A stretch of DNA of 36,583 bases, taken from a virus. The stretch lies in the IMG/VR virus record IMGVR_UViG_3300044980_000018, positions 1 through 36,583 of that record; one strand, written 5' to 3'. Below are positions 570 through 36,583 of the stretch, piece by piece. The notes beneath the pieces are model-generated. The model had not been told where the DNA came from. It saw only the letters and a list, made by a program, of their open reading frames with translations, and did no database searches. A program made the translations under genes and the position numbers. The stretch's first letter is position 1, and every line of letters begins with the position of its first letter.

Positions 570-839
570 TTGCCCAAGGGCTGGACCCAGCACGCTCGGC
601 TGGGTGGCAACGTGCCGATCGCTCGCTCGGCGCCCGGCCCGCTTAAGGAACCGATGACCGAAGCCGACAAGCAGAAGCTGGTCACGCAGTTCGACGAGAT
701 GGCGGCGTTCGCGGCCCAGATCAGCATCCCGGTCGCGCACGGGCTGCGGCTCGGCTGGTTGATTCAACAGCTCGGCGCGACCATCCAGGCAATCAAACCA
801 GAGCGGCCCACGTTGGCTGCCGTACCGGAGGCAAGCTGA
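570..839 (+). CDS. Hypothetical protein, 89 aa
   Basis: Family not recognised. It is the first gene after the terminase ATPase, three bases after its stop. The longest form starts at TTG 570. An alternative is ATG 654, which has AAGGA four bases upstream and would give 61 residues beginning MTEADKQKLV. The C-terminal part looks amphipathic-helical with a hydrophobic stretch (ISIPVAHGLRLGWLIQQLG), too polar for a confident membrane span. Its stop overlaps the next ATG (TGATG at 837-841), so translational coupling is likely. It belongs to the block of small genes lying between the two terminase halves. Confidence 0.6.
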   Translation: MPKGWTQHARLGGNVPIARSAPGPLKEPMTEADKQKLVTQFDEMAAFAAQISIPVAHGLRLGWLIQQLGATIQAIKPERPTLAAVPEAS

Positions 840-1063
840 TGCTGACGTGGTCTTGCGACAACTTCGCGACGTGCGGAACTCCGCCTGTCACGAGCGATGG
901 TCTGCCGCCCGGCTGGTCGGACAACGTGATCCAGGGCCAGCGGACGATCCTCTGCCAGGTCGATACGCCGCAGATCCTCACGGCGTTCCCGAGCACTCCG
1001 ATTGCCGTCTCGGCTGCCGCTGCTGCCGCTGCGGTCAACCAGGCCCAGGTGCAAGGTGGCTGA
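839..1063 (+). CDS. Hypothetical small protein, 74 aa
   Basis: Family not recognised. The start ATG overlaps the previous stop. The protein has three cysteines, two of them in SCDNFATC near the N terminus (residues 6 and 12), and one in ILCQVDTP. The C terminus ends in a run of alanines (AVSAAAAAAAVNQAQ), probably a flexible or helical tail. The Cys pattern is too sparse to call a zinc site. Its end overlaps the next gene by 8 bases. Confidence 0.6.
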   Translation: MLTWSCDNFATCGTPPVTSDGLPPGWSDNVIQGQRTILCQVDTPQILTAFPSTPIAVSAAAAAAAVNQAQVQGG

Positions 1064-1439
1064 CCGCGCGCCCCGCTACGTCTCGATGTACTGGGTGCTG
1101 GGTGCCGAGCGCGTGAGCCAGGCCGTGCCGGCTGGTCCGTCAGATGCTCAGTTCGTGCTCGAGCTGGCGAACGAGTTCGAGGTGGCCAGGATGGAGAACG
1201 CATTCCTCTGGGTCGAGGCCTCCGACTGGGACCGGCTGCTGCGGCTGGTTCCGGAGGAGCTGAGGACCGCCAGAGCGCCGCCGACCATGGACGCCATGGA
1301 GAAGGCGCGCAAGAAGCTGGAGCTGAAGACGCCAATGGTGATGCGCGGCGCTGGCTTGACCGAGGACGTGACCGAGAAGCTGCGTCAGGACGGGGCTGGC
1401 GAGCCGTCGACCAAGGCGCCCAAGCCGGTGTTGCAGTGA
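1056..1439 (+). CDS. Hypothetical protein, 127 aa
   Basis: Family not recognised. GTG 1056 was chosen because it follows an AGGTGCAAG purine-rich stretch and gives the usual short overlap with the upstream gene; an open frame extends further back but runs inside the neighbour. The protein is soluble and mostly helical by composition. The segment from about residue 25 to 65 (AQFVLELANEFEVARMENAF and onward) resembles a compact folded domain, and the C-terminal third is Lys/Pro-rich and probably disordered. It lies in the coupled small-gene block between the two terminase halves. Confidence 0.65.
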   Translation: MADRAPRYVSMYWVLGAERVSQAVPAGPSDAQFVLELANEFEVARMENAFLWVEASDWDRLLRLVPEELRTARAPPTMDAMEKARKKLELKTPMVMRGAGLTEDVTEKLRQDGAGEPSTKAPKPVLQ

Positions 1440-1657
1440 GCGATCGGGCCGTGCTGGACTCTGGGTTTGCATTGCACGTCTATCCGAGCGACCCGCCGCG
1501 CTCTGCCCTACCGGAGACGCCAGCGGGTCGGCTCGACATGGTCATGGAGCTTTGGAAGGGTCGCGAGATCTGGTGCTCTTGCTGCGAAGAGTTTCACAGG
1601 GAAGGCGGGGGGCTGATTGACGACGATGAAGCCCGCAGACTCCTGGAGATGTCGTGA
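1436..1657 (+). CDS. Small Cys/His protein, 73 aa, paralogue of the 31850 gene
   Basis: Starts at GTG 1436 in a GTGA overlap with the previous stop. The C-terminal half has TPAGRLDMVMELWKG, then WCSCCEEFH, then LIDDDEARRLLEMS. The same order appears in the gene at 31850-32113 (SPAGKLQVIMELMGG, CVCEVCGDEHW, LISKEDGLNLLDKP), so the two are diverged paralogues. The Cys/His cluster suggests a small zinc-binding fold; no catalytic residues are evident. The next gene overlaps by a GTGA. Function unknown. Confidence 0.7.
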   Translation: MSDRAVLDSGFALHVYPSDPPRSALPETPAGRLDMVMELWKGREIWCSCCEEFHREGGGLIDDDEARRLLEMS

Positions 1658-1902
1658 CCTGGACCCTCATCATCGACGAGTACGAGGGCAAGCCCGACGG
1701 CACAACCTTCGAGGCCGAGAGCTTCGCTGAGATCGAGGGCCTCATCCGGACCATGACCGGCAACAGCGACACAGGGCACCGCCGGGCCATCACCGCGCAC
1801 GTCATGCAGGGCGACCGGAAGTGGTTCGAGGTGCGCTGGGCCGAGATGACCAAGTCGCACTGGTTCAAGTATTGTCCGCCGGAGCGTGCTGGTGCTAGAT
1901 AG
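1654..1902 (+). CDS. Hypothetical protein, 82 aa
   Basis: Family not recognised. GTG 1654 overlaps the preceding stop (GTGA) and has GGAG five bases upstream. The N terminus (MTWTLIIDEYEGKP) looks like a beta hairpin and the middle is acidic and helical (ESFAEIEGLIRTM); Trp and aromatic residues cluster at the C terminus (KWFEVRWAEMTKSHWFKY). A compact alpha/beta fold is plausible but no family can be named. It is part of the coupled block separating the terminase halves. Confidence 0.65.
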   Translation: MTWTLIIDEYEGKPDGTTFEAESFAEIEGLIRTMTGNSDTGHRRAITAHVMQGDRKWFEVRWAEMTKSHWFKYCPPERAGAR

Positions 1903-2218
1903 CTCCAGTCTCCGGCGCGGCATGCTCTGGACCTGGCGCACCGCCGACGGCAAGCTCCAGGTCCGCGAGGCCGGCGGCGACTGGACCGACGTGGGCGTGC
2001 CCGGAGACCTGCGCGCGCTGTTCGCGTTCTTCGATCTCGAGATGCCACCGCAGCCGATGTGGATGCCGTGGCATCCGATTCGCGACTGGTGGCTACGGCG
2101 CCGTGCCAAGCAGTGGTATCGCGGCTGGTACGAGACCAAGCACCGACTGGAGCTGGAGCAGAAGCGCAAGCTGAGGCTGGCTCAGCTCAAAGACCTGTAT
2201 GTGAGGAAGACGCCATGA
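1892..2218 (+). CDS. Hypothetical Trp-rich basic protein, 108 aa
   Basis: Family not recognised. GTG 1892 is preferred over GTG 1886 because CCGGAG lies seven bases upstream of it. The protein is rich in Trp and Arg (WMPWHPIRDWWLRRR, then WYRGWYETKH) and ends in a long basic helix (LELEQKRKLRLAQLKDLY). Such a tail could bind nucleic acid or line a membrane surface, but nothing decides between these. It ends in an ATGA overlap with the next gene. Confidence 0.6.
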   Translation: MLDSSSLRRGMLWTWRTADGKLQVREAGGDWTDVGVPGDLRALFAFFDLEMPPQPMWMPWHPIRDWWLRRRAKQWYRGWYETKHRLELEQKRKLRLAQLKDLYVRKTP

Positions 2219-2562
2219 GTGAGTTCGAGACGAGCGGCAATATCGCCATGGCCCAGACCAACGAGCAGCGCCCGTGGTCTGATGCCAACGTGACTCCCGA
2301 CATCTGGCGCCTCTATGCCCTTCGCCTCGGCCGCGACACCTATCCAGGCGGTGGCAAACTCATGTTCGAGGGCAGCTTCAAGGACGCGCATGACTTCCTG
2401 GACTTCCTCGAGAGGATGCCGATGAACACGCCCGGCATGGAGGCGATCAAGAAGATCCAGAACCCGCAGCCGTACATCGTGCGCGTGGTCGGGCCGCTCG
2501 TGACCGTGAAGCTGGGGAACGAGAAGACGTGCTTGAACCTGTCGTTCAATGGGGAGAAGTGA
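2215..2562 (+). CDS. Hypothetical protein, 115 aa
   Basis: Family not recognised. ATG 2215 overlaps the upstream stop (ATGA); an open frame extends upstream only inside the neighbouring gene. The sequence looks like a folded alpha/beta domain: ITPDIWRLYALRL-like helix at residues 26-38 (as TPDIWRLYALRLGRD), a second helix DAHDFLDFLERMP, then beta-like strands YIVRVVGPLVTVKLG near the C terminus. There are no Cys clusters, unlike several neighbours. It overlaps the next gene by one base (TGATG). Confidence 0.65.
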   Translation: MSEFETSGNIAMAQTNEQRPWSDANVTPDIWRLYALRLGRDTYPGGGKLMFEGSFKDAHDFLDFLERMPMNTPGMEAIKKIQNPQPYIVRVVGPLVTVKLGNEKTCLNLSFNGEK

Positions 2563-2906
2563 TGATCGTGCGCAAGACCGATGGCAGCCTTGGTTACTGC
2601 GGCAATGAGCAGATCAAACGGACGAACGATGCGATCAATCTGCTGCTCGATGGGCAAGCCATCACCGAGAAGCCGACCCAGGTGGATCCGCTGCCGGATT
2701 ACTGCATTGGGGGGCTTCGTCGCATCGCTGGCTCGAACACCTGGTTCTGCCCCAGATGCGGATTGCGCTTCGTGGCCGAGGACCCCAAGGAACTCGAAGG
2801 CGAAGGCATTTGCTGTGGGCCGATGAGCGGGGCAATCACTCGCGGTATTCCGGGCGTCAACGAGGGCAAGCCATTCAGCGACAGAGGGATCACGCTTGTC
2901 CCCTAA
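2562..2906 (+). CDS. Hypothetical zinc-ribbon-like protein, 114 aa
   Basis: ATG 2562 shares a base with the preceding stop (TGATG) and follows GGGGAGAAG. A central WFCPRCGLRF and a later ICCGP supply two Cys pairs typical of a small zinc ribbon (residues about 67-95), with another Cys in the segment YCIGGLRR. The N terminus is polar and helical. A structural zinc site is likely; DNA or RNA binding is possible but unproven. The end overlaps the TTG-started ORF at 2896 by 11 bases. Confidence 0.65.
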   Translation: MIVRKTDGSLGYCGNEQIKRTNDAINLLLDGQAITEKPTQVDPLPDYCIGGLRRIAGSNTWFCPRCGLRFVAEDPKELEGEGICCGPMSGAITRGIPGVNEGKPFSDRGITLVP

Positions 2907-3165
2907 GTGGCACGCCCGTGACGTGCACTGCCCGAAGAACGTGCTGCGCGTCAACGAGGGGGTGAGATGGCTAGTGCCGTGCAAGTTTGCAGCAGGTCAC
3001 AGAGGCGAACACCAACCAGAGGAGACGCAAGATGAACAAGGGACAGCAGTTGCCAGTTGGACACGGGACGGGGAGCAGGTACGAGCGGGGCCTTCAGAAG
3101 GCGGAGGACTACATCGAGGCCCTGCCGGAGCACCCGACGGAGGCGCAGAAGAAAGCCTATGCTGA
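2896..3165 (+). CDS. Small C-GHxGxH protein, up to 89 aa, overlapping the next gene
   Basis: Starts at TTG 2896 with GAGGG seven bases upstream. The first 45 residues carry HCPKN and then WLVPCKFAAGHRGEHQP, the same Cys and GHxGxH pattern as the protein at 32766 (FCELAKGHDGPHDR). This small motif supports a real gene. The last 45 residues overlap the well-started gene at 3032 in another frame and look low-complexity (Gly/Pro/Glu). Either the overlap is real or a base change has lengthened the frame. The function is unknown. Confidence 0.45.
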   Translation: MSPKWHARDVHCPKNVLRVNEGVRWLVPCKFAAGHRGEHQPEETQDEQGTAVASWTRDGEQVRAGPSEGGGLHRGPAGAPDGGAEESLC

Positions 3166-3292
3166 TCACGTCGAGCGCTGGAATCGGCCGCAGGAGCGAG
3201 TCCAGAAGGGCGAGCTGGCGGGATCGGACTACCGCGTGAAGATCATCTACGAGAACAATGGCGCGCTGGTGCAGTTGCCTGCCGGGAAGTAG
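3032..3292 (+). CDS. Hypothetical protein, 86 aa
   Basis: Family not recognised. ATG 3032 is chosen because AGGAG lies at a good distance upstream; the frame is open from 2987. It is a polar, charged protein with a helical middle (AQKKAYADHVERWNRPQERV) and a beta-like end (DYRVKIIYENNGALVQLP). It is the last gene before the nuclease half of the terminase, and its TAG shares one base with that gene's GTG, so the two are probably translationally coupled. Confidence 0.65.
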   Translation: MNKGQQLPVGHGTGSRYERGLQKAEDYIEALPEHPTEAQKKAYADHVERWNRPQERVQKGELAGSDYRVKIIYENNGALVQLPAGK

Positions 3293-4008
3293 TGGATAAC
3301 TCCGCACTCGGCGTCGACCTCGGCGAGACGCACGACCCGACCGCGCTGGTCGCCCTGCGTCAGGTCGGGGACGAGTTCCATGCCACGCACCTGGAGCGGC
3401 TCAAGCTCAACACGAGCTATGAGCGCGTCACACAGGGCGTGGTCCAGCTCATGGAGAAGCCCTGGTATGTCGACACGGCGCTGGTGGTGGATGCTACGGG
3501 CGTGGGAAGGCCGGTTGTGGAACGCATGGAGGACGTGGGGCTCAACCCGATCCCGGTCGTGATCACGGGCGGGGTCAACGAGATCCACGAGCCGGGCGAC
3601 TGGTCCTGGCGTGTGCCGCGCAAGACGTTGCTCACGATCGTGCAGATCCTGTTTATGCGCGGCCAGATCAAGCTACCGGCTGGCCACAAGCTGACGGCCG
3701 AGCTTGAGCACGAGATCCGCAACGTCAAGCGGCGCGCGAAGGCAGGCACGAACGAGGCCACCGAGATCGGGCGCGAGACCGAGCACGATGACATCTTCTT
3801 CGCGCTGTGTTTAGCTGCCTGGCAGGTGACCAAGTATTACCAGCCGGTCCAACAGACGCTGGCGAAGACGCTTGAGCGCAGCACATGGCTCCTGGACCAG
3901 CAGAAGCGGGACTATGAGGAGATGCAGCGCCGCATGAGCCAGAACCCCGAAGAGATCGAGGTCGACGACTGGCTCCAGAGCGCGGAGCGTGGGGTTGAGG
4001 CATGGTAG
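3292..4008 (+). CDS. terL: Terminase large subunit, separate nuclease domain, 238 aa
   Basis: This is the RNase H-like headful/cos-cleaving nuclease domain of a phage large terminase, encoded alone. The three acidic sites of the fold are visible: GVDLGETHDPTAL (D9), ALVVDATGVGRP (D67) and ETEHDDIFFALCLAAW (D166/D167). No Walker motifs are present; those are in the gene at 36225-566. The GTG 3292 start puts the first catalytic strand within six residues of the N terminus, so no upstream ATPase part is hidden. In ordinary phages both domains form one chain. Here they are 2.7 kb apart with ten small genes between. The catalytic residues look intact. A working two-subunit TerL is inferred. Confidence 0.9.
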   Translation: MDNSALGVDLGETHDPTALVALRQVGDEFHATHLERLKLNTSYERVTQGVVQLMEKPWYVDTALVVDATGVGRPVVERMEDVGLNPIPVVITGGVNEIHEPGDWSWRVPRKTLLTIVQILFMRGQIKLPAGHKLTAELEHEIRNVKRRAKAGTNEATEIGRETEHDDIFFALCLAAWQVTKYYQPVQQTLAKTLERSTWLLDQQKRDYEEMQRRMSQNPEEIEVDDWLQSAERGVEAW

Positions 4009-4322
4009 GCGCCGCCGCCACCGTCAACGAGCTGCTGACCGTCACCGCGCGTCACGGCCTAGTCCCGGCCGAGATCCGCCTGGCTGACGGGACGCACCTG
4101 CTGCTGGCGCCCAAGGACGCGCCCATGCCGCCCGAGGATCCGAAGGCGCCCAGGGAACTGCCAGACGAGTTCGATGACCTGCCGGTGCCTGACGGCCTGC
4201 CGCCGAACTGGAAGGACCCGCGCGACGGACGCGACACCGAAGACAACCGCAAGAGGTCCGAGGCTGCGCAGGCTGAGGCTGACAGGCTGGTGTTAGGCGA
4301 AGCGATCCCGGAGGAGAAGTGA
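4002..4322 (+). CDS. Hypothetical protein, 106 aa
   Basis: Family not recognised. It overlaps the terminase nuclease gene by 7 bases and has a GAGG-type site upstream of ATG 4002. Residues 1-37 look folded (VNELLTVTARHGLVPAEIRL, then GTHLLLAPKD); the rest is Pro/Asp-rich and probably disordered, ending in a charged helix. The position directly before the portal gene suggests a packaging or head role, but no motif confirms this. The stop codon is followed immediately by the first base of tRNA-Asn. Confidence 0.65.
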   Translation: MVGAAATVNELLTVTARHGLVPAEIRLADGTHLLLAPKDAPMPPEDPKAPRELPDEFDDLPVPDGLPPNWKDPRDGRDTEDNRKRSEAAQAEADRLVLGEAIPEEK

Positions 4323-4394
4323 TGTCCGGTAGCTCAGCGGTAGAGCGCCCGCCTGTTAAGCGGGTGGTCGCTGGTTCGAATCCAGCCTGGACAG
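4323..4394 (+). tRNA. tRNA-Asn (anticodon GUU)
   Basis: A 72-base cloverleaf. The acceptor stem TGTCCGG pairs with CTGGACA (one G-T pair), the D arm is GCTC/GAGC, the anticodon stem CCCGC/GCGGG encloses loop CTGTTAA (anticodon GTT), the T arm GCTGG/CCAGC encloses TTCGAAT, and the discriminator is G. CCA is not encoded. It starts on the base after the previous gene's stop, so it is probably cut from the structural-gene transcript. Confidence 0.96.
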
Positions 4395-4400
4395 CGAACC

Positions 4401-4482
4401 GGATGAGATGCCCCAACGGCGGGGCAGCGGACTGTAAATCCGTGGCCTCCGGGCACGGCAGGTTCGATCCCTGCCTCATCCA
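4401..4482 (+). tRNA. tRNA-Tyr (anticodon GUA)
   Basis: An 82-base class II tRNA. Acceptor GGATGAG pairs perfectly with CTCATCC, discriminator A. The anticodon stem GCGGA/TCCGT (one G-T) encloses CTGTAAA, giving anticodon GTA. The long variable region GGCCTCCGGGCAC is the type expected for bacterial tRNA-Tyr. The T arm GCAGG/CCTGC encloses TTCGATC. The D loop is short. CCA is not encoded. Only six bases separate it from tRNA-Asn. Confidence 0.95.
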
Positions 4483-4502
4483 CCGACAAGAGGAGGCCAC
4501 GG

Positions 4503-24526: not shown

Positions 24527-24631
24527 ATGAACGACACCGAGAAGGCGATGCTGCTGGCGATGGTGCCGATCCTGGTCCGCTGGATTCGAACCACCGTCAT
24601 CCAGGTTCAGAGCCTGGTATCCTTCCGCTAG
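24527..24631 (+). CDS. Candidate 34-aa hydrophobic microprotein
   Basis: ATG 24527 to TAG 24629-24631, three bases after the preceding stop. The sequence begins MNDTEKAMLLAMVPILVRWI and continues with TTVIQVQSLVSFR. A hydrophobic core (AMLLAMVPILV) beside Arg/Trp could form one short membrane-active helix. It ends the late operon, a frequent place for lysis genes, and the genome has no recognisable endolysin or holin. It overlaps the convergent minus-strand gene by 35 bases. Its size makes the gene call uncertain. Confidence 0.45.
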   Translation: MNDTEKAMLLAMVPILVRWIRTTVIQVQSLVSFR

Positions 24632-25214
24632 ACGACCCCGAATCAGAAGGTGGGTGCATGCAGCTCGCCAGCCCGCACACTCGGCACGAGCCGGGAGTGG
24701 CGGCGAGGATGGGGCGGGGCACTGCGGAGGATGCGTCCAGAACGGCGTGGCTGATCTTGGCCTGGAAGAAGTGCTCAATCAGGTACTTGCCGACGCAGAC
24801 CTCGCATCCGGTGTGAATCGGGCATGGTCCGTCCTTCACGTTCGGAATCTCGACCGCATCCAGCGTGGCCCTCGTCTCTACGACGTGCGCCGCTGTCATG
24901 GCCACAACCTGCTCCGTGACCAGCTCCCGCCTCGCCTGCTCTGCGATCCCGGCAAAGGCGGCGGCGAGACGAGCCATGGCCTGCTCATTGGTGATGCATT
25001 GGCCGAGTGTCTCAACCCACGCCCGCGCCCGCGCCTCGTGGGTGAGCGGGGCGGGGGCTGAGGGCTGAGGCGGCTGGTAGTTCGGCCCCAGCGGGTTGGC
25101 TCGCGCCGGCTGGAATCCACCGGCCGGCCAGGTTTGCTGCGCATGGCAGGCGGTGCATGGAAGAGGTAGGTAGTGCTCTGGACACTGACCGCCGTAGTTC
25201 CCTGGATCACTCAT
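24597..25214 (-). CDS. Hypothetical Cys/His-rich protein, 205 aa (last gene of leftward operon)
   Basis: Family not recognised. The start ATG at 25214 follows the operon pattern of short overlaps (8 bases with the upstream gene); the frame extends 15 codons further back without a supporting site. Three Cys/His clusters are visible: QCPEHYLPLPCTACHAQ at the N terminus, PCPIHTGCEVCVGKYLIEHF near residue 135, and CRVCGLASCMHPP near residue 185. The middle is helical. Zinc binding is likely; similar Cys-rich accessory proteins recur in this genome. It converges on the end of the structural operon. Confidence 0.65.
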   Translation of the reverse strand: MSDPGNYGGQCPEHYLPLPCTACHAQQTWPAGGFQPARANPLGPNYQPPQPSAPAPLTHEARARAWVETLGQCITNEQAMARLAAAFAGIAEQARRELVTEQVVAMTAAHVVETRATLDAVEIPNVKDGPCPIHTGCEVCVGKYLIEHFFQAKISHAVLDASSAVPRPILAATPGSCRVCGLASCMHPPSDSGSSSGRIPGSEPG

Positions 25215-30475: not shown

Positions 30476-31853
30476 ACCCTACCAGACTCTCGCTCTCGAC
30501 CAGCTCCGGGCCAAGGTCCGGGCCGGGGCGCGGCGCGTGCTGCTGGTGGCGCCGACCGGGGCGGGCAAGACCGTCATCCTGGCGTCGCTCATCCAGTCAG
30601 CGCAAGCCAAGTGGACGCGGAGCCTGATCATCGCCCACCGCCGAGAACTCATCGAGCAGACGCACGACCGGTTTGCGCGCGAGGGCATCGGCGCCGGCAT
30701 CATCATGGCCGGGCATCGGCCGACGGATGCCCTGACCCAGGTGGGGAGCATTCAGACACTCGCGCGCCGTCGCCCACCGGACGCGCGCATCCTAGTGATA
30801 GATGAGGCCCACCATGCCAAGGCGAAGCAGTACGAGAAGCTACTTGATGCGTATCCAGGTGCTATCGTGGTCGGGCTTACCGCCTCGCCGTGGCGCTTGG
30901 ATGGTCGCGGACTCGGCGACATCTTCCAGGATTCGGTTGTCGCCGCCACCCCCGCCCAGCTCATCTCGCAAGGCTACCTCTGCGGCTACACGGGGTTCGC
31001 GTTCCAAGCCCCAGACCTGACTGGAGTCCGGACCATCGCCGGGGACTGGGACGAGCGGGGGCTGAGTCTGGCGTACCAGAAGTCAACGATTTACGCGGAC
31101 ATCATTGAGAAATGGAGCAAACATGCCAAGGGCAGGCAAACGATCGTCTTCGCCAGTTCGATTGAGAACTCCATGGATATCGTTGCTCGATTTCGAGGTG
31201 CCGGAGTCCGCGCGGAGCATCTTGATTTTCGGACTCCCAGGAATGACCGTGCTCGGGCGCTTGAACAGGTGCGGTCCGGAGAAACCAGGGTCTTGTCGAA
31301 TGTCGGTCTCCTGGGCGAGGGAATTGACATCGCCAGTCTCGCCGTCGCCATCCTCGCCCGCCCCACCAAGTCCCTCACCGTCTACCTCCAGCAAGTCGGC
31401 CGGGTCATGCGCCCGAAAGCGGACGGGGCCAAGGCGCTGATTCTGGATCACGCCGGCAACGTCGAGCGGCACGGTTTGCCCGAATCCGAGCGCGACTACA
31501 GCCTGACCACGACCAAGCCCCGCGAGGTGGTGCCGGCGCTGAGGACGTGCAAGAGCTGCTTCTGCATTTGGGAAGGGGCCGGCGCATGTCCGGAGTGCGG
31601 ATTCGCTCAGCCGGCGACCGTGGCGAGGAGCGGGCCGGAGGTGTCGCTGGCTCACCAAGAGGTGCCGCTGGCCCAGGTGCGCCGGTCGAGGGATGCGCTG
31701 GTGGTCCAACTCGCTGGCGAGGCCAGGGCGCGCGGTCGTGCTCCGGGATGGGTGGTCCGAGAGCTCAAGTCGCGCATGCCCGGCGCGAGCTTCCCCGCTG
31801 GCTGGTGGCGTGCGAATGTGGCGGGCGAAAAGGGAAACTGGAGGTGGGCGTGA
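30465..31853 (+). CDS. SF2 DEAH-type helicase with C-terminal zinc ribbon, 462 aa
   Basis: An ATP-dependent DNA or RNA translocase of superfamily 2 (UvrB/RecQ-side, phage DEAD/DEAH type). Motifs in order: LRPYQTLALDQL (Q-like), LLVAPTGAGKT (motif I, residues 27-36), IIAHRRELIEQT (Ia), ILVIDEAHH (II, DEAH at 113-116), VGLTASPWRLDG (III), TIVFASSIENS (IV), VLSNVGLLGEGIDIASL (V) and YLQQVGRVMRP (VI). After the helicase core, CKSCFCIWEGAGACPECGF is a zinc ribbon. The last 60 residues are basic. GTG 30465 overlaps the previous gene. It is probably used in replication restart or recombination. Confidence 0.9.
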   Translation: MQLRPYQTLALDQLRAKVRAGARRVLLVAPTGAGKTVILASLIQSAQAKWTRSLIIAHRRELIEQTHDRFAREGIGAGIIMAGHRPTDALTQVGSIQTLARRRPPDARILVIDEAHHAKAKQYEKLLDAYPGAIVVGLTASPWRLDGRGLGDIFQDSVVAATPAQLISQGYLCGYTGFAFQAPDLTGVRTIAGDWDERGLSLAYQKSTIYADIIEKWSKHAKGRQTIVFASSIENSMDIVARFRGAGVRAEHLDFRTPRNDRARALEQVRSGETRVLSNVGLLGEGIDIASLAVAILARPTKSLTVYLQQVGRVMRPKADGAKALILDHAGNVERHGLPESERDYSLTTTKPREVVPALRTCKSCFCIWEGAGACPECGFAQPATVARSGPEVSLAHQEVPLAQVRRSRDALVVQLAGEARARGRAPGWVVRELKSRMPGASFPAGWWRANVAGEKGNWRWA

Positions 31854-32113
31854 CGAGATGGTGTAAGCATGGATTCCAGATCGAGATGTGCGCGCACTGC
31901 ATGGGTCCGCCGCCAGGGCTGGACAGTGGCGCGGCGCTGGTCGCCAAGGGTCTGGCACCGCTCAGCCCGGCCGGCAAGCTTCAGGTGATCATGGAGTTGA
32001 TGGGCGGCCCACCCACTCGTTGCGTCTGCGAGGTTTGCGGCGACGAGCATTGGATTGAGCATCCGGCGCTGATCTCGAAAGAGGATGGGCTCAATCTGCT
32101 GGACAAGCCATGA
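31850..32113 (+). CDS. Small zinc protein, 87 aa, paralogue of the 1436 gene
   Basis: GTG 31850 overlaps the helicase stop (GTGA). Its two Cys/His sets are WCKHGFQIEMCAHCMGPPPG at the N terminus and CVCEVCGDEHWIEH further on. The C-terminal half (SPAGKLQVIMELMGG, then LISKEDGLNLL) matches the 1436 gene in order and spacing. The N-terminal WCKHGF...CAHC element is absent there. It lies between a helicase and a VRR-NUC nuclease, so a DNA-related partner role is possible. Confidence 0.7.
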   Translation: MTRWCKHGFQIEMCAHCMGPPPGLDSGAALVAKGLAPLSPAGKLQVIMELMGGPPTRCVCEVCGDEHWIEHPALISKEDGLNLLDKP

Positions 32114-32598: not shown

Positions 32599-32766
32599 AT
32601 GCGAAGGCTGCTCGACGACCCGAAGATCTTCTCCTACGTGATCCTGGTTCTCTACATGCTCAACTCGAGCCGCTGGCTCTACGCGCGCAACTATGGCCAG
32701 GCGCTCTACTGGTTCGCCGCGTTCCTAATCACGTTCTCGGTCATGTTCCTGATGGAGGCGCACTGA
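32599..32766 (+). CDS. Two-span membrane protein, 55 aa
   Basis: ATG 32599 with GAGGG upstream; a TTG at 32581 would put the start within the terminator T-run. The sequence MRRLLDDPKIFSYVILVLYM, then RWLYARNYGQALYWFAAFLI and TFSVMFLMEAH gives two hydrophobic helices (about 11-22 and 35-52) joined by a basic loop. Similar small membrane proteins occur in other phages with unknown roles. A two-span topology is also that of class II holins, so lysis is one option. It lies before replication genes, which argues against a simple lysis cassette. TGATG overlap with the next gene. Confidence 0.75.
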   Translation: MRRLLDDPKIFSYVILVLYMLNSSRWLYARNYGQALYWFAAFLITFSVMFLMEAH

Positions 32767-33041
32767 TGGCTGACCAATGCGGTGAGAAGTTCGGCCCCGA
32801 GAAGTGGTTCTACTTCTGCGAACTCGCCAAGGGCCACGACGGCCCGCATGACCGCAAGGCACGGCCTGCGCCCCCGCTCGCCTATGACGCCGCACGAGCC
32901 CGCATCGAAGCCGAGCGGGACCAGGATGAGTTCTGGAGAGCGTGTATGGCCGCGTGCCTGGCCAACGACGACGGCGCCGAGACCGCCGCAGAGCTGGCCG
33001 ACGCCGCCCTGGCCGAGGCGGTTCGTAGGGGGCGGGTGTGA
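32766..33041 (+). CDS. Small C-GHxGpH protein, 91 aa
   Basis: The N terminus DQCGEKFGPEKWFYFCELAK, then GHDGPHDRK gives the C...C..GH.GpH pattern of a small zinc-binding module, recurring in the gene at 2896. The remainder is helical (ARARIEAERDQDEFWRACMA; ETAAELADAALAEAVRRG). Its ATG overlaps the preceding stop, and its own stop overlaps the next GTG. Function unknown. Confidence 0.68.
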   Translation: MADQCGEKFGPEKWFYFCELAKGHDGPHDRKARPAPPLAYDAARARIEAERDQDEFWRACMAACLANDDGAETAAELADAALAEAVRRGRV

Positions 33042-35441: not shown

Positions 35442-35462
35442 ATGCCTGGACGCAGGCACTTT

Positions 35463-35849
35463 ATGCCCCAACACGCCACAAAAACGAGCTGGGGACCAGG
35501 TCAGTCTGGCAATCCCACTGGAATGAGCAGCGAGCTTCGCCGCCTGGTTGATGCCGCGCGCCTTGAGGCAGCCAAGGGCGCCGTCCGAGACGTGCGCCGG
35601 CTGAGGAAGATTGCCAAGAGCCCCGGCGAGAACGATGCCGTGGCGGTCAGCGCAACGCGGGCCACGCTTGAGGTAGCTGGTGCGACCAAGCAGGTTGAGC
35701 GGGACGAGCAAGACGGCCTCACAGCCGCGCAACTCATGGAGGGCATCATCGCGATCCTGCGCCTGAAGATGCCGGCGGCCGTCGATGTCCTTGACGCTGA
35801 ATTCTCGGAGGTGCCACGTGCGTTACCCGATTCTGATCCTGCTGCTTAG
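35463..35849 (+). CDS. TerS-position protein with GQSGNP motif, 128 aa
   Basis: It lies just upstream of the large terminase and probably acts as, or with, the small terminase subunit that recognises viral DNA. The N-terminal TSWGPGQSGNPTGM is the GQSGNPxG basic turn of DUF5681-type proteins, common at phage packaging modules. Helices follow (ELRRLVDAARLEAAKGAVRD; DAVAVSATRATLEVAGATKQ), suiting an oligomeric ring. ATG 35463 is preferred to 35442 because of the promoter position. It overlaps the lipoprotein gene by 32 bases. The TerS role is from order and motif, not proven. Confidence 0.65.
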   Translation: MPQHATKTSWGPGQSGNPTGMSSELRRLVDAARLEAAKGAVRDVRRLRKIAKSPGENDAVAVSATRATLEVAGATKQVERDEQDGLTAAQLMEGIIAILRLKMPAAVDVLDAEFSEVPRALPDSDPAA

Positions 35850-36234: not shown

Positions 36235-36583
36235 ACCCGCGCATCGGGCAGGTCTACCGCAAGGCCAAGGCCGGCCCGGCGAGCGTGCTGGAGTTCGCCG
36301 AGATCGTCCGGTTCGAGCCCGATCCATGGGAGGACTGGCAACGCGACTTCCTACTCTGCGACGACGACCAGATCGCGCTGGCCTGTCATCGTGGCGCTGG
36401 CAAGTCGGCGGTCACGAGCGTCAAGGCGCTGTTCAAGATCGTCTCGCGGCCCGGGTTCTCGGTCCTAGCCGTCTCGCGCGCGGACGATGCCGCGATGCAG
36501 CTCACGGACTACGTGCATCGGCGCTACCGGATGCTCCCGGAGCCGCCGAAGACGGTCAAGAGCACTGACCACAAGCTCGCGCT
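36225..36583 (+). CDS. terL: Terminase large subunit, ATPase half (5' part; continues at 1-566)
   Basis: The N-terminal part of the packaging ATPase. DPWEDWQRDFL (residues 34-44) is the adenine-binding Q region, and LACHRGAGKSAV (52-63) is Walker A; VLAVSRADDAAMQL follows. The frame crosses the circular join without a break. No ATG or TTG lies in frame upstream of the Q region: an in-frame TAG is at 36192. CTG 36225, five bases after GGGAG, is the best start; GTG 36285 is the alternative but would remove 20 residues. CTG starts are rare, so the start is uncertain. It overlaps the lipoprotein gene by 10 bases. Confidence 0.9.
   Translation, partial: MQLDPRIGQVYRKAKAGPASVLEFAEIVRFEPDPWEDWQRDFLLCDDDQIALACHRGAGKSAVTSVKALFKIVSRPGFSVLAVSRADDAAMQLTDYVHRRYRMLPEPPKTVKSTDHKLA
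36457..36583. repeat. Right copy of exact 127-bp terminal repeat
   Basis: Identical to bases 1-127. Everything from 36457 duplicates the left end, so one copy should be removed before counting genes or making alignments. See the left copy for interpretation. Confidence 0.95.

Follow-up and report, generated by a model that had tools for sequence, protein, structure and literature searches.

Large terminases and related gene arrangements

The large terminase (TerL) of the T4 type, represented by gp17, joins a packaging ATPase domain (Terminase_6N) to an RNase H-type nuclease domain (Terminase_6C), and the C-terminal nuclease has been called a universal feature of Caudovirales (PMC7824862). The terminase described here has the same two domains with conserved catalytic residues, and its nearest cultured relatives are those of the Thermus phages Riverbug and P23-45/G20c. 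However, TerL is one polypeptide in these phages, while it is encoded here by two genes with about ten others between them. Separate terL fragments also occur in Jug phages, in which the terL genes are split by group I introns (PMC12363816). In that case, splicing restores one reading frame, whereas the present locus has no intron, its two parts have their own starts and many genes lie between them. Two protein families match the halves at the same length: phrog_7579 (terminase large subunit, 239 positions) for the ATPase and phrog_27743 (233 positions) for the nuclease, the latter being labelled as of unknown function and not as a terminase.

The intervening genes also recall the morons of tailed phages, which are likewise short genes without known function between conserved structural genes, and, as is expected of morons, they are absent at the same site in related genomes (58 out of 62 two-gene loci lack them). 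The block differs from morons in that a consensus scan, limited to sigma-70-type sites, found no promoter or terminator of its own, in having the base composition of its flanks and in lying inside what is usually one gene. Within the literature searched, which was covered in part, no description of a two-gene TerL lineage was found.

The DNA analyzed (hereafter the window) is the whole 36,583-nt IMG/VR contig of an uncultured phage. Its ends share an exact terminal repeat of 127 bp (positions 1-127 and 36457-36583), which indicates that the window represents a complete circle of 36,456 bp.

The two halves of TerL

The ATPase gene, on the plus strand, spans the contig ends (36285-36583 joined to 1-566). 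Its N-terminal part (36285-36581) contains the Walker A motif CHRGAGKS and runs on across the 127-bp repeat to position 1, and its C-terminal part (3-566) contains the Walker B motif MMIEDE, an STPKG motif and the TAG stop codon at 564-566. Since the last ORF of the window supplies the missing N-terminus, the ATPase protein is whole, with 245 aa. The residues upstream of the block match Terminase_6N (PF03237) at 30 bits, against a Pfam cut-off of 22, and also match phrog_2. This above-threshold match and the aligned Walker A and B motifs are those of the P-loop packaging ATPase of a T4-type TerL.

The nuclease gene (3292-4008, plus strand) encodes 238 aa from its own GTG start, with catalytic Asp residues at D9, D67 and D166/D167. 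The residues downstream of the block match Terminase_6C (PF17289) at 31.9 bits, against a cut-off of 22.6, and the three acidic nuclease positions are retained among relatives. AlphaFold models the nuclease with confidence (pLDDT 87.7), and the best PDB match of the model is the G20c TerL nuclease (5m1f), followed by other terminase nucleases. Family match, aligned acidic residues and fold are thus all those of the RNase H-fold nuclease of a T4-type TerL. Long C-terminal helices, encoded at 3843-4005, are predicted outside the nuclease core fold and could form a docking arm.

When aligned to the intact TerLs of Riverbug, P23-45 and a Meiothermus phage, the ATPase half stops, and the nuclease half starts, at the inter-domain linker. 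Both halves are complete and domain-bounded, and their catalytic residues are kept. The departure from a T4-type TerL lies in the single polypeptide, which is replaced by a stop at 564-566, a separate start at 3292 and about ten ORFs between them. Because about ten genes intervene, fusion of the halves by frameshifting or read-through is excluded here, hence they would act in trans.

Searches of 50,697 phage records by tblastn with the nuclease, the portal and the major capsid protein (MCP) returned no near relative, and two nucleases from genome-contig loci found nothing nearer in phage records than the fused Meiothermus TerLs. Peptide-pattern scans of viral contigs with either half gave no matches.

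The block of small genes

The interval between the terminase halves is filled, as the sequence-only reading had described, by small genes: ten consecutive ORFs of 73-127 aa, all on the plus strand, at 570-3292. Nine of the ten look coding and one, g9, is doubtful. The coding scores of g1-g3, g5-g8 and g10 in their own frames match those of neighbouring genes. The coding signal of g4 is weak, yet its own frame scores best, and that of g9 is negative, with a 134-nt overlap with g10. Open reading frame and codon score are the basis for g1 (570-839, 89 aa), which has a TTG start with a possible ATG at 654 and no family match, for g2 (839-1063, 74 aa), which has a Cys cluster, for g5 (1654-1902, 82 aa) and for g6 (1892-2218, 108 aa), which has an alternative GTG at 1886. 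The highest codon score within the block belongs to g7 (2215-2562, 115 aa), while g10 (3032-3292, 86 aa) is preceded by a strong GAGGAG ribosome-binding site. The remaining genes are g3 (1056-1439, 127 aa), g4 (1436-1657, 73 aa), with a CSCC..H cluster, g8 (2562-2906, 114 aa), with a zinc-ribbon-like CPRC...CC pattern and a weak match to PF06827 below the cut-off, and ORF 9 itself (2896-3165, 89 aa).

Linkage by ATGA, GTGA or TGATG overlaps, proposed earlier for the whole block, is present at five of the nine internal junctions (g1/g2, g3/g4, g4/g5, g6/g7 and g7/g8), while the other four overlap by 8, 11, 11 and 134 nt. Across the genome, 20 of 39 pairs of same-strand neighbours overlap or sit at most 5 nt apart. 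Tight packing is therefore usual in this genome and is not a special mark of the block. The Cys/His clusters that had been noticed are found in g2, g4, g8 and g9, and the likeness of the block to its surroundings was borne out: its GC content (60-68%) is similar to that of the flanks, and a comparison of codon use, suggested at the time as a check, found block and flanking genes equal.

Comparison of the g1-g10 proteins with PHROGs, Pfam, PADLOC and NCBIfam gave no match above noise, and g7 gave only chance-level matches to phage records. Firm relatives were obtained for two block genes, g3 and g4, and two or three have any detectable relative. The gene g4 has a paralogue in the early region, at approximately 31850-32113 (z 10.9), and has a segment in common with the portal (z 8.7). 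For g3, a homologue (z 7.5-9.4) occurs at 4379-4756 of L068, a related contig, upstream of an intact and different TerL. ORF 9 and an early gene at 32766-33041 have a short Cys/His motif, C..GHxGxH, in common (z 5.0), and a later gene of the L068 cluster, near the g3 homologue, bears a weak likeness to g6 (z 3.4). By its gene content, the block resembles a set of small accessory genes native to the phage. No convincing repeats that would mark an insertion were seen at the block boundaries. Among the relatives found, none carries the block at the same place, which suggests that the arrangement is lineage-specific.

The segment PAGRLxMVxEL is common to the small zinc-ribbon-like family (approximately 31850-32113 and 1436-1657) and to residues 477-502 at the C-terminus of the portal.

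Two-gene terminases at other loci

Profile-guided scans of IMG/VR and genome contigs yielded more than 100 loci. After removal of redundancy at 90% identity, 62 loci, the window included, have the ATPase and the nuclease in separate frames; they lie on IMG/VR contigs and on genome contigs labelled as methanogens, Acidobacteriota, Actinomycetota, Gemmatimonadota and others. The sequence-only reading had tied the presence of the block to a split terL, and comparison of relatives, as it had proposed, undoes this tie: 58 of the 62 loci are blockless, and their nuclease genes start, by extrapolation from the profile, at -27 to +152 nt relative to the ATPase stop. Among the 62, a long insert separates the two genes only in the window and in L023, where this distance is 2729 and 4843 nt, respectively. 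In L013 and its kin, one small ORF lies between the halves and the nuclease bears a zinc-ribbon-like extension. A tandem pair of nucleases follows the ATPase gene in L047 (G006:286-1517) and L049 (G007:14572-15731), the second copy of which may be a diverged duplicate.

In the nuclease tree, 60 split sequences fall into one large part together with 5 fused and 9 ATPase-less ones, while the other 10 fused sequences stand apart. The 5 fused ones, all Acidobacteriota-labelled, are nested in the split part and the Thermus-type fused sequences are separate. The tree needs at least three changes between fused and split forms, with many weak inner branches, and the window nuclease is a long branch whose position is unsure. 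Because split sequences fill a large part of the tree, the split seems to predate the block by far, and the two-gene TerL looks like an old state of the whole terminase lineage. Fused TerLs among two-gene kin on Acidobacteriota-labelled contigs (L160, L183, L188, L200 and L202) are possible secondary fusions.

Metagenome assemblies can hold frame errors. One such case is L010, which was rejected as a fused TerL as its ATPase is frameshifted and its nuclease starts at its own ATG. The ATPase-less methanogen loci L205-L208 were set aside because their stops had been read through and their parts are on different contigs. The overlapping start and stop codons at many loci argue against frame errors as a general cause of the split.

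Long inserts are not limited to the window. In L023, the halves are 4.8 kb apart, with opposite-strand genes included. In G001, they lie at opposite contig ends, which L008 bridges, giving approximately 9 kb between the halves as inferred across the two contigs; L008/G001 is thus probably a third case. No detectable relation was found among the genes of the three inserts, and the three loci occupy different parts of the nuclease tree, hence insertion at the joint apparently took place more than once. From these arrangements, the joint between ATPase and nuclease evidently tolerates insertions, and contiguity of the halves would not be required. An HNH-like gene (G001 2352-2786) lies directly downstream of the ATPase gene, inside the joint.

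Relatives by portal and capsid

L068 is the closest contig by portal and MCP, with 52% identity for each. Its TerL is intact, belongs to another family (best match Terminase_3) and is encoded directly upstream. A fused TerL is also present in about 60 portal relatives that are more distant and in which an ATPase was detected. A syntenic relative, G004, with 27% identity in portal and capsid and 41% in the helicase, encodes TerL as two overlapping genes without a block, and small genes follow its nuclease. The portal of the window is homologous to those of both contigs. The different TerL states of L068 and G004 indicate that, in this group, the type of terminase is not tied to that of the capsid. 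Small genes appear to collect at several joints of the packaging module.

Origin and role of the block

It is likely, in our view, that the block is a cargo of small accessory genes lodged between the two genes of an ancient two-polypeptide terminase. The large terminase of this phage lineage would consist of two proteins: a packaging ATPase of 245 aa and an RNase H-type nuclease of 238 aa, which presumably docks in trans on the ATPase ring and cuts the DNA when packaging begins and when it ends. The joint would be occupied by about ten small genes similar in kind to the early accessory genes, probably in a common operon, and these would be co-transcribed as cargo. Their products are most likely accessory factors, several of them zinc-ribbon-like, with no required role in the motor.

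A version of the cargo explanation, compatible with it and possible although rather doubtful, is that the terminase genes arrived by recombination and flanked a small-gene cluster that was already resident. L068 retains the portal-adjacent gene and the g3 homologue, yet has another TerL; the weak likeness to g6 in its cluster and the uncoupling of terminase and capsid types among relatives point the same way. Nonetheless, L068 offers a firm match to just one block gene and has its cluster upstream of every terminase gene, and no intermediate was found among relatives.

The block genes could also be dedicated partners of a two-part motor, such as linkers, adaptors or regulators. This is consistent with their place in the packaging operon, with the g3 homologue near packaging genes in L068 also and with the motif common to g4 and the portal. 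It is nevertheless improbable: in 58 of the 62 loci, nothing is encoded between the halves, the g3 homologue accompanies a fused, different TerL and the long inserts of L023 and L008 have nothing detectable in common with the block. The earlier proposal that the genes assist the split motor is thus not sustained as a requirement, since nearly all two-gene terminases do without them.

Its other proposal, a cargo that broke terL, stands for the cargo and falls for the breaking. Insertion of the block into an intact terL would agree with its position exactly at the domain boundary and with the intact TerL of L068, the closest portal and capsid relative, but is very improbable. The halves are already separate in 61 other non-redundant loci, nearly all blockless; the TerL of L068, being of another family, is not the uninterrupted form of that of the window; and on the tree, the fused sequences closest to the window are outnumbered by split ones. 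Since 58 of 62 two-gene loci lack the block, it was not the cause of the break in terL, and a linker gene is not required.

An arrangement in which the halves would be exons of a single gene, brought together through an intron of group I or II or through an intein, as the origin of the split terL of Jug phages (PMC12363816) might suggest, is scarcely credible. Rfam yields tRNAs only and no intron, about ten open coding frames occupy the interval, an intein is excluded by the stop codons and the nuclease gene carries a start of its own. In relatives, the stop and start codons overlap or genes on the opposite strand separate the halves.

Beyond the cargo explanation of the block, we consider it likely that tailed phages and proviruses include a widespread and so far unrecognized lineage in which DNA is packaged by an obligate two-subunit TerL, where a free-standing nuclease would join a separate ATPase ring in trans, the window showing that the halves need not be genome neighbours. 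Separate ATPase and nuclease proteins would offer a natural system for testing pumping apart from cutting. The nuclease gene is easily missed because the matching PHROG family is labelled as of unknown function, and a terminase tree or completeness check built around a full-length TerL will interpret such genomes wrongly.

Other features of the packaging region

A candidate small terminase gene (TerS) at 35442-35849 is DUF5681-like, with a score below the Pfam cut-off. Downstream of the packaging genes, a tRNA-Asn and tRNA-Tyr pair (4323-4484, plus strand), missing from L068 and from L052/L053, lies between a 106-aa gene and the portal. An Rfam tRNA match of 35.8 bits is located at 24573-24637 on the minus strand, where ARAGORN makes no call. 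The 106-aa gene (4002-4322, plus strand) is kept beside the portal in L068 too. A GNAT-type acetyltransferase gene recurs beside terminase genes, in L068 (6541-7062, with a Pfam match), L052 (7458-7853) and L010 (3395-3934).
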